From Labilithrix sp. (GTDB lineage Bacteria; Myxococcota_A; Polyangia; Polyangiales; Polyangiaceae): a stretch of DNA of 64,000 nt. Positions 18,913 through 21,176 of the stretch are shown one piece after another (positions within the stretch are counted from its first letter, which is position 1; every line of letters begins with the position of its first letter). The DNA is taken from contig JAHBWC010000020.1 of assembly GCA_019637225.1 (NCBI GenBank), positions 1 to 64,000 on the forward strand. The letters run 5' to 3'. Both the position numbers and the translations under genes were made by a program. The notes under the pieces are model-generated. The model saw nothing but the letters and a program-made list of their open reading frames with translations, was not told where the DNA came from and searched no databases.

Positions 18913-19059
18913 GTGCCGAGACTACCACTGCCGCGGGGCATCCATTCCCAGCGCGCGGGACAATCGCGCGCGCGGGCGCAACGCCGCACGCGACCCACGC
19001 CGCGTCCCGCTCCGGCGCGTTCGGAACGTGCAGGCGTGTCGGCCGAGGAGAACGTCGCC

Positions 19060-19815
19060 ATGCACTCGCCTTCGCTCGCGCTCGTCGTGCTCGATCTCGC
19101 TGGAACTACGATCGAGGACCACGACGTCGTCGCTCGCTGCCTCGTCGAGGCGGTGCAAGCCGTCGACGTCGCCATCGATCGAGAGGCCGCGAACGCCGTG
19201 ATGGGACTGCCGAAGCCGGTGGCGATCGCGCAGATCCTCGCGCAGCACGACGGGATGCCGATCGCGCCGCTCGGCTCCGAGCGCGTCCTCCGCGCGACGG
19301 CCGTCTTCGAGCGCGCGATCTTGAGGCACTACGGCTCACCCGGGGCCGTCGTGCCGATCTCCGGCGTCGAGGAGACGCTCGACGCGCTCCGCGAGCGAGG
19401 CGCGAAGATCGCGATCGACACCGGGTTCTCGGCGGTCGTCGCGGACGCGATCCTCGATCGTCTGGGGTGGATCGCCGAGGGCCTCGTCGATGCGCGCGTG
19501 GCCAGCGACGAGGTGCGCCGCGGCCGGCCCGCGCCCGACCTCCTGTTCGAGGCGATGCGGCGCGTGGGCGTGACCGACGTGTCGACCGTCGCGAAGGTCG
19601 GCGACACGCCGGCCGATCTCGGAGAGGGCGCGAGCGCGCGTTGCCGGTGGAACATCGGAGTCACGTACGGGACGCACTCGCGCGCGGCGCTCCTCGACCA
19701 CCCGCACACGGCGCTGATCGACGACATCCACGATCTGCCGATCGCGCTCGGTGTCGAGAGCGTTCGATCCCGCGTCCGTCCCGCCCCCGCGCGCCGGCCG
19801 GGGGGCCGCCCCTAG
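19060..19815 (+). CDS. HAD-superfamily phosphonatase-like hydrolase
   Basis: 251 residues. HAD motif I reads VVLDLAGTTIED at about 6-17, with the nucleophile Asp and the acid-base position in DLAGTT; the small helical cap follows (residues 20-85, conserved LPKPVAIAQIL); motif II is AIDTGFS; motif III Lys lies around RRGRPAPDLLFEAM (the RP region of the family); motif IV is KVGDTPADLGEGASARCRWNIGVTYG. This matches the phosphonatase-like group related to phosphonoacetaldehyde hydrolase and beta-phosphoglucomutase. The DLAGTT form and absence of a cap Lys that I can identify make true phosphonatase activity unproven. ATG 19060 has GAGGAG nine bases upstream; the open frame further 5' is a shadow. 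Confidence 0.85.
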   Translation: MHSPSLALVVLDLAGTTIEDHDVVARCLVEAVQAVDVAIDREAANAVMGLPKPVAIAQILAQHDGMPIAPLGSERVLRATAVFERAILRHYGSPGAVVPISGVEETLDALRERGAKIAIDTGFSAVVADAILDRLGWIAEGLVDARVASDEVRRGRPAPDLLFEAMRRVGVTDVSTVAKVGDTPADLGEGASARCRWNIGVTYGTHSRAALLDHPHTALIDDIHDLPIALGVESVRSRVRPAPARRPGGRP

Positions 19816-19822
19816 CGCGCCA

Positions 19823-20165
19823 CCCATTCCTGTCGCGATGGATGCCCGAGACAAGATCGGGCACGGGCACGGGCACGGGCACGTGGGAGACGAGAGGGGA
19901 CGTCACTTGCGTCACGAGCACAGACAACCTTTGGCGCGATGGGCCGAAGCGAGGAGATGGTCTCGATCGACAAGCGACGCTACTACGTCAGGGCACGCGG
20001 CTCGGCGAGTTGCGCAGTGTCTTGCCTGGATCGCGTGCCATGTGCACAGCAATGCCCGCCGCCACAGAACACGACGCGCCTCTCGTCTCCTCTCCCACGT
20101 GCCCGTGCCCGTGCCCGTGCCCGTGCCCGATCTCTCTTCTGATCACCTCGACCGGAATAGGGACG
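19823..20165. mobile_element. Non-coding inverted-repeat element, MITE-like
   Basis: Long inverted repeat between two convergent genes. The left arm (19854-19897) contains AGATC, four GGGCAC hexamers, then GTGGGAGA and CGAGAGG. The right arm (20079-20133) is its reverse complement with five hexamers and a five-base insertion. Weaker matching continues outward for about 30 bases (CCC.ATTCC.GTCG on both sides), so the whole unit is about 340 bases with a core of about 180. The core has no credible gene; short frames through it read only Gly-His or Val-Pro repeats in the arms. This could be a miniature transposable element, or a structured bidirectional terminator. No target-site duplication is obvious. 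It accounts for the whole 368-base gap. Confidence 0.6.
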
Positions 20166-20183
20166 CCCTCTAGCGCGCGCGGC

Positions 20184-21176
20184 TCAGGGGCGGGTGGCGA
20201 CGAAGACGTCCATCGAGCCCGCGCGGTCGCTCACCAGGTAGAGCCTGCAGCCGTCGGGCGACACCCACGTCGGGAACTCGGTCCGGGCGGAGTTCAGCGC
20301 CGTCACGGGCGTCGCCTGGCCGAACGCGGCCTGGAGTGTCGCCCGCGTCGCGACCCAGACGTCGCTGTCGCCGAGGCCGCCGGGGCGATCGCTGCCGAAG
20401 TAGACCGTGAGCCCGTCGGGCGAGAAGGCGACGCCCGCCTCGTTGTTCGACGACCTGAGCTCCGCCACGAGCGTCGGGGCCTGGTAATCGCCGATGTCGT
20501 CGCGCACGCTCCGGAAGAGGTGGCGCGTGATCCCGCCGAGGCGCTCCGACGTGAACCACAGCTCCGCGCCGTCGTGCATGACCGCCGGATACGTCTCGAC
20601 CTGCGGCGTGGCGAGGCGAGTGAGTCTGCGGGGCGCGCCGAACGGCGCCGTCGCGATCGCGCGCGACGCCGTGTAGATGTCCGCGTCGTCGCCCGACTCG
20701 CCGCTGTAGAAGAGCATGAGCCCGTCGGCCGTGAGCGCCGGCAAACCGACCGACGTGACCGACAAGCCCTGCGTGAGCCCGTCGATCGGCGCCGGAGCGG
20801 AGAAGGGCGCTTGCCGGGAGGCGCGCGTCGCGAGGAGGATCGTCTCGTTGAAGTCGACCCGGCGCGAGAACACGATCGTGAGCTCGTCGGCGGTGAAGCT
20901 CGCGAACTGCTCCCCGCTCGTGCTGTTCACCGGTGCGCCGAGCGCCGTCGGAGCACCGAAGGGAAGCGCCGGATCGCACGGCGGACCCGGAGGCGCGTCG
21001 GAGGTCGGCGCGTCGTCGGCCGGCGTCGCATCGCGTTGCGAGGCTCCGTCGTCGCCGCCGTCGCCGCCCTGCTCGGTCGATCCCGTCACCCTCTCGAGGT
21101 CGCCGAAGCCGACGATCGCGTTGCACGCGGCGAGCGCCGTCGATCCCGCCAGCGTCAGTCGCTCGAGCGCGCGCAT
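20184..21176 (-). CDS. PD40/WD40-like beta-propeller lipoprotein
   Basis: 330 residues with a short lipoprotein signal (lipobox LAAC, Cys18), then an acidic Asp/Gly linker (30-65) and a propeller built of TolB-like PD40 blades. Blade signatures are FTADELTIVFSR, LTADGLMLFYSGE, MHDGAELWFTSER, FSPDGLTVYFGSDRPGG and VSPDGCRLYLVSDRAG. This fold is used for protein-protein contact; in TolB it works with Pal at the outer membrane, and in these lipoproteins the partner is unknown. Many such single-gene PD40 lipoproteins occur in Polyangiales. It is divergent from the acidic protein at 21,368, and its 3' end abuts the inverted-repeat element. Confidence 0.84.
   Translation of the reverse strand: MRALERLTLAGSTALAACNAIVGFGDLERVTGSTEQGGDGGDDGASQRDATPADDAPTSDAPPGPPCDPALPFGAPTALGAPVNSTSGEQFASFTADELTIVFSRRVDFNETILLATRASRQAPFSAPAPIDGLTQGLSVTSVGLPALTADGLMLFYSGESGDDADIYTASRAIATAPFGAPRRLTRLATPQVETYPAVMHDGAELWFTSERLGGITRHLFRSVRDDIGDYQAPTLVAELRSSNNEAGVAFSPDGLTVYFGSDRPGGLGDSDVWVATRATLQAAFGQATPVTALNSARTEFPTWVSPDGCRLYLVSDRAGSMDVFVATRP

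Follow-up and report, generated by a model that had tools for sequence, protein, structure and literature searches.

The window, a stretch of 64,000 nucleotides from Labilithrix sp., contains a long inverted repeat with arms of GGGCAC hexamers between two convergent genes, and this locus raises the question of whether the repeat is a mobile sequence or a signal that serves its neighbors. The original prediction named both options, a miniature mobile element carrying variable arrays of the hexamer at its termini or a structured bidirectional terminator. The former is supported by further copies, empty sites, CTAG ends and transposase-bearing relatives. Very probably, the repeat arose by internal deletion as a non-autonomous, MITE-type derivative of an IS5-family element of 1.37 kb, in which a 23S rRNA-intervening sequence protein (IVP) gene is a passenger.

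The repeat was first placed at positions 19,823 to 20,165, which proved slightly too short on both sides. The complete unit spans 362 nt, from one CTAG (19,812–19,815) to another (20,170–20,173), with 354 nt between the two. Inside the left CTAG is an imperfect terminal inverted repeat (TIR) beginning with CGCGCCACCCATTCCTGTCGCGATGG (19,816–19,846, plus strand), which was recognized by alignment with the right end and is common to six other copies in the genome (L009, L012, L014, L015, L016, and L018). The right TIR (20,144–20,169, minus strand), defined by alignment of the two halves and by copy comparison, ends in CGACCGGAATAGGGACGCCCT. The left arm (19,854–19,900, plus strand) consists of (GGGCAC)x4 at 19,859–19,882 plus CGTGGGAGACGAGAGGGGA, and the inverted right arm (20,081–20,133, minus strand) includes (GTGCCC)x5 at 20,099–20,128; the four and five hexamers counted originally were therefore correct. 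Arm alignment gave 30 nt of pairing at 100% complementarity (19,854–19,883 with 20,104–20,133) and, in another register, 43 nt at 93% (19,858–19,900 with 20,081–20,123, with a 180-nt spacer). The imperfect outward extension was also confirmed, as complementarity runs on through the TIRs and ends in CTAG. The two halves aligned with a score of 47.5, compared to 17.1 ± 2.9 and a maximum of 32 in 500 dinucleotide shuffles. The inverted repeat is real and far beyond chance. CTAG is found 11 times in the window while base composition predicts 167, and because it is so rare its presence at both ends is not a chance expectation.

The position between convergent genes was borne out as well. The upstream gene (18,913–19,815, plus strand; a HAD-like hydrolase by eye) has 87% amino acid identity to its counterpart in congener G004 and 74% in congener G003, and its TAG stop codon forms part of the left CTAG. 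The downstream gene (20,184–21,176, minus strand; WD40/PD40-like repeats by eye) is 76% and 65% identical in the same two genomes, respectively, and ends at 20,184.

Further genomic analysis revealed that the unit is one of many related sequences. A 391-nt query returned 105 matching stretches in the genome's own assembly (8.2 Mb in 182 contigs, 83% complete). Approximately ten copies match well past the arrays, namely the window copy and those on C124, C97, C130, C2, C128, C120, C135, C165, and C55, and these long copies share 76–97% similarity through the TIRs and core. Thirty-nine matching places were fetched and examined together with the window, giving 40 loci. Inverted pairs of arrays were found in 12 of them, unpaired arrays of at least three units in 26, and none that long in the remaining two. 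By eye, some of the single arrays form part of reading frames, and these probably have nothing to do with the element. Array length varies from 3 to 6 units between copies, as would result from the slippage that was suggested by the unequal arms; the variation is observed, and slippage would be its likely cause.

Among the ends where a CTAG could be identified, alignment at the CTAG gave a majority identity inside the element of 0.73 for eight left ends and 0.72 for eight right ends. Outside the element these values were 0.53 and 0.52, compared to 0.49 ± 0.02 for random sequence. Similarity among copies thus stops sharply at CTAG. The tetranucleotide was found at both ends in 6 of the 40 loci (the window, L009, L010, L013, L014, and L015) and at one identified end in eight more. 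Several window-element relatives in the genome (L019, L021, L023, L025, and L028) have a long (CGTCT)n array as their core, and the left ends of L021 and L023 carry right-end-like sequence. Assembly contigs stop inside or near the elements at L018, L019, and L023, therefore the family is probably under-counted.

Twelve genomes of the genus, including its own, were compared at the insertion sites. Clear orthologues of the downstream gene were found in G004 and G003. The search returned twelve loci for this gene and three were checked for the neighboring gene, which was present at L182 and L183 and absent at L184. In both G004 and G003 the convergent gene pair lies close together and the element is absent. 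The same was found for a second copy (L015, on C135), which is missing from G004, where the flank is 95% identical, and from G003. For a third copy (L009) there was no informative empty site, as only the right-hand part matches in congeners. The search of the genome and its relatives proposed in the original prediction therefore yielded both multiple copies and orthologous empty sites, which exclude a single-copy sequence of conserved position. Alignment with the empty sites of G004 and G003, together with the end of copy similarity, marks the CTAG at 19,812–19,815 as the putative left target-site copy, and the same two kinds of evidence mark that at 20,170–20,173 as the second. CTAG or YTAR is the target of the IS5 family, and the CTAG ends of the window element fit it. 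In G004, GTAG stands in place of CTAG at the window site and TGA rather than TAG at the L015 insertion point, so the CTAG before insertion is inferred rather than seen. The empty sites suggest that CTAG would be a 4-bp target duplication, with a palindromic target being compatible with 2 bp as well as 4 bp.

Candidate parents of the family were found in two congeners, one of 1,368 bp (L155; G011, C14:64687-66054) and one of 1,373 bp (L156; G004, C162:8092-9464). Both consist of a CTAG, a TIR, (GTGCCC)n, an IVP gene, a convergent transposase gene, (GGGCAC)n, a TIR, and a CTAG. In L155, (GTGCCC)x4 and the IVP gene follow CTAG-GACGTGTCCCTGAACGG, and beyond the convergent transposase come (GGGCAC)x6 and an inverted end that closes with CTAG. 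The transposase belongs to the IS5 family (NF033580, 1.9e-37) and matches DUF4096 (PF13340, 1e-25) and a DDE domain (PF13586, 2e-7). We take the parent elements to be members of the IS427-like subgroup. In G011 and G004 the N- and C-terminal halves of the transposase are in different frames, with one TAG in G004, and no uninterrupted single-frame transposase was seen in either genome. Either programmed frameshifting or decay could account for this. The own assembly, at 83% completeness, gave no transposase matches.

The TIR pattern of the congeners was matched 24 times in G011, 28 times in G010, and three times in G004, and not at all in the own assembly at up to 2 mismatches. The own-genome ends have diverged from those of the congeners, and the TIRs of the window copy only partly resemble theirs. 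In G011 approximately nine end pairs are spaced near 300 bp, representing a miniature form. An IS5 relative of ~869 bp in G042 (L158) ends in CTAG and has neither IVP nor GGGCAC arrays. G010 contains CTAG-type end pairs 169–178 bp apart and no match to the window-element DNA or to the IVP query. Based on these IVP-free IS5-type relatives, the IVP module appears to have been added to an IS5 element. The 169-bp CTAG-ended TIR pairs, present at several places in G010 (e.g., C5:28790-28958 and C107:11748-11916), resemble a miniature IS5-type family. Other genomes show further variation; the element at L114 (G069) has an intact IVP gene, only relics of a transposase, and five hexamers on each side, and the arrays of G072 mix GTGAAC and GTGCCC units. 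At L128 (G020:C62) a single CTAG seemingly serves two element ends (..GACACGCCCTAGGGCCTGTCCC..), as though the CTAG next to one element had been the insertion site of another.

The connection between the window unit and these elements lies in its core. The statement that the core has no gene held for intact genes; it did not hold for gene remains, as relics of two genes are present. The first relic comprises the region upstream of IVP with its start codon (19,942–19,976, plus strand; 92% identity to L011 on C130), in which the ATG is retained at 19,957–19,959. It is followed by a piece of IVP coding sequence, DKRRYYVRARGSA (19,968–20,008, plus strand), which is identical to the L011 IVP open reading frame at 40 of 41 bases (97.6%) and was detected by tblastn with an E value of 5e-4. 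The second relic is the 3′ end of the transposase gene, only ~27 nt long (20,009–20,035, minus strand), whose reverse complement encodes ..GKTLRN.. as in IS5 transposases. L011 is the longest copy in the genome. It encodes a 119-amino acid IVP, followed by a transposase C-terminus on the opposite strand (85% over 20 amino acids to the G011 transposase C-terminus, E 2e-7), the right arm, and the right end. The window and L011 are colinear in three blocks (19,942–19,976 at 92%, 19,968–20,008 at 97.6%, and 20,008–20,173 at 96%), separated by two deletions in the window copy. The left end of L011 is truncated upstream of the IVP gene, beside a transposase-like gene (IS4-like by eye).

From this, a pathway for the family can be proposed. 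A parent with the order CTAG, TIR, (GTGCCC)n, IVP gene, convergent DDE transposase gene, (GGGCAC)n, TIR, and CTAG would have given rise to copies like that in the window, which would have lost most of both genes through internal deletions and kept their ends. Their movement would most likely have depended on an IS5 transposase supplied from elsewhere that recognized the TIRs; this mobilization in trans, like the transposition chemistry itself, is inferred. Insertion would occur at CTAG, a rare tetranucleotide that arises at gene ends wherever a TAG stop codon is preceded by C.

The passenger gene, which encodes a four-helix bundle protein, was identified in L011, whose open reading frame scored at 4e-20 (PF05635) and 9e-18 (TIGR02436) against the 23S rRNA-intervening sequence protein family. 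Seven sequences were compared in pairs; the elements that supplied them contain a transposase gene or its relics, or have similar arms. The dN/dS values lay between 0.06 and 0.28 (21 pairs, several with dS near saturation). These values point to purifying selection on IVP, unlike what would be expected of a random captured fragment, and this constraint suggests that IVP serves the element. The IVP reading frame lies between complementary ends in L114 and L155; L011 has the right arm only and the window relics only. The family has a solved structure, 2gsc (XCC0516). Viral contigs scanned with the IVP protein gave seven pattern matches and no relative, and a comparison of L001, L155, L049, L058, and L238 with Rfam gave nothing at the gathering score.

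The association of IVP with inverted hexamer arms extends well beyond this genus. Named genomes were scanned with an IVP alignment and the best 80 of 501 relatives were kept. Flanks of 220 nt from the match ends were then scored for inverted arms, with 20 as the threshold; 12 loci had no flank or contained N, leaving 68. Among these best 80 of 501 relatives, inverted arms scoring at least 20 were found at 38 of the 68 usable IVP loci, compared to 0 of 505 control reading frames from the same loci, with five controls dropped for N. No arms reached the threshold in ~44% of the named loci tested from this set. In an earlier version with 70 loci, which includes an artefact of N at L227, 40 of 70 matched pairs scored at least 20 compared to 70 of 4,830 mismatched left-right pairs, and 10,000 permutations never gave a sum as high as that observed. 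L227 itself was rejected as an armed locus and removed from the 68-locus count, as its high score came from a run of N; two control reading frames that scored highly in the earlier scoring also lie there.

The arms are often periodic. A period of 6 was found in 25 of 44 arms scoring at least 18 (L227 included), while periods of 4, 5, 7, and 8 were found once each. The units include CGTGGT (Sorangium), GAGCCC, ATCGAA, TAATCG, GGTCGT, and GTGCCC. Because units differ by locus, even within one genome, and yet the two arms of a locus match, the arms may be kept or rebuilt together. Sorangium cellulosum So ceGT47 contains three armed IVP copies with two different units, and its relative G096 has an IVP copy at another place, with similarity running from arm to arm only. 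Twelve stretches from So ceGT47 (G091) and G096 (L313–L324) include many palindromes with CGTGGT-type arms in which IVP is deleted or reduced to fragments; at least one stretch (L316) resembles a repetitive reading frame and another (L319) shows one orientation only. Several ends among these twelve share GGTCACCAACGTGAACG and further inverted sequence (by eye), suggesting long TIRs. No transposase was recognized inside the Sorangium elements, and the armed-IVP design thus recurs without a recognized internal transposase. A contig of a Planctomycetota metagenome-assembled genome (L206) contains hexamers, IVP, and a convergent IS5-like transposase within 3 kb, although a binning error is possible. 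L231 was not counted as a composite element, since its IS5-like transposase adjoins IVP outside the arms.

The window's own genome encodes other IVP subfamilies, and none of the 10 loci tested had flanking arms (none scored above 10), which weighs against generalizing the pattern. At further IVP-family loci of this genome (L049, L050, L051, L052, L053, L054, L057, and L061; L056 and L058; L062) a long imperfect hairpin immediately precedes the gene, whose ATG falls within the 3′ arm or next to it; at several of them the stop codon is followed by G-rich simple arrays. The hairpins of the three subfamilies are unrelated and share the same layout.

These observations raise an alternative in which the IVP gene and its inverted hexamer arms are the real mobile unit, moving by a hairpin- or RNA-based route as rRNA intervening sequences might, with the IS5 transposase as a later partner in one lineage. 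The frequency of arms at IVP genes, their locus-specific units, and the Sorangium elements and IVP-deleted palindromes would all be in keeping with it. For the window family, however, TIRs, CTAG ends, and an IS5 transposase within the same ends suffice to explain its spread, and the IVP-free IS5 relative and the 169-bp CTAG-ended elements in a congener with no IVP match show such ends without IVP. The inverted ends in Sorangium also appear extended (by eye), so that there, too, the elements may be served by a transposase from elsewhere, and IVP is not known to have a catalytic domain. This alternative is therefore considered unlikely.

The terminator option takes the repeat to be a structured bidirectional terminator, or an RNase III processing site, of the two convergent genes. 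The location is suited to this role, and the unit has a predicted RNA fold of -190.8 kcal/mol (z -7.5 compared to shuffles). Moreover, open frames of at least 100 codons terminate at 15 of 20 element ends, compared to 34 of 72 readings of other CTAGs (Fisher p 0.04). This preference follows from CTAG at stop codons, as does the placement between convergent genes, because the rare target arises from a C before a TAG stop. The scattered copies have different neighbors, two congeners have this gene pair with nothing inserted between, and no site of the intrinsic terminator type (GC-rich hairpin followed by a T run) was found in 19,700–20,300. As an explanation of the unit, this part of the original prediction was abandoned as quite improbable. 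A side effect on expression is still conceivable, as the long RNA stem in the predicted fold may affect both convergent transcripts.

REP/BIME-type sequences, which a TnpA_REP (RAYT) transposase would spread, resemble the unit in being short palindromes near gene ends with a tetranucleotide at the foot; given that a REP is a much shorter sequence and that relatives with similar ends enclose an IS5 DDE transposase, this reading is very improbable. In a GC-rich genome, independent GGGCAC simple-sequence arrays might come to lie in opposite orientation by coincidence, as the 26 of 40 loci without an inverted pair of arrays of at least three units, some in reading frames by eye, could suggest, but the similarity through TIRs and core up to CTAG and a score well above the shuffle maximum make this scarcely credible.

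The preferred reading, an internally deleted derivative of an IS5-type element, can be compared with known systems. IS5-family insertion sequences (NF033580) have in common with these elements the DDE transposase (in the parents), short TIRs, a palindromic CTAG target, and split frames. They differ in that the elements described here add an IVP gene convergent to the transposase gene and inverted hexamer arrays inside both ends; L158, which has neither, represents the basic form. Like bacterial MITEs, the window unit is short and without an intact gene, occurs in several copies, and has imperfect TIRs and putative target copies (CTAG) at both ends, and it would, as they do, derive from a larger element by internal deletion; unlike them, its core keeps traces of IVP, and its variable subterminal (GGGCAC)n arrays give an unusually long perfect stem. 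The bAvd protein and other accessory proteins of diversity-generating retroelements are four-helix bundles which presumably belong to the same broad family as IVP. In contrast to those retroelements, no reverse transcriptase was noticed in the elements.

A further likeness is to the intervening sequence in the 23S rRNA of Coxiella burnetii. This sequence is described as a selfish element with an S23p reading frame and complementary ends that are cut by RNase III (PMC4990558). It shares with the present elements an IVP-family reading frame within complementary ends that could form one long stem. The differences are that the window copy lies between two protein genes rather than in a 23S rRNA helix, and that these elements have TIRs, CTAG ends, and, in the parents, a transposase. 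The same paper calls the function and origin of the intervening sequence unclear, with ‘remnants of a transposition event’ given as one hypothesis (PMC4990558). The accessible portion of a paper on rRNA insertions in CPR bacteria contains none of the IVP-related terms that were looked for (PMC11270868). A literature search of titles and abstracts, with few subscription journals and no preprints, found no report joining IVP with IS5 elements or hexamer arms, which is weak evidence of novelty.

The ordinary part of this account is a MITE of an IS5 element, and the family accounts for one class of palindromes, bounded by CTAG, that lie where genes end in these genomes. The new part is the IVP passenger and the hexamer palindrome. 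The passenger, its constraint, and the recurrence of a hexamer palindrome around IVP genes may be surprising to a specialist. It is tentatively suggested, as a possibility with the balance against it, that IVP genes, each lying between inverted tandem hexamer arrays, could be central to a class of dispersed elements that is widespread and spans several phyla. Such elements would shed gene-less palindromes, would sometimes be coupled to a DDE transposase, and might be related to rRNA intervening sequences as free-living forms, perhaps even as their source, with IVP acting on the long stem of its own element. The link between IVP and arms in distant bacteria predicts a nucleic-acid substrate for this protein family. 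How rRNA intervening sequences and IVP (S23) proteins arose and spread is a question that is decades old, and the IVP family as a constrained passenger in IS5-type elements with TIRs, together with deletion derivatives that have empty sites, would offer a testable vehicle for that spread.
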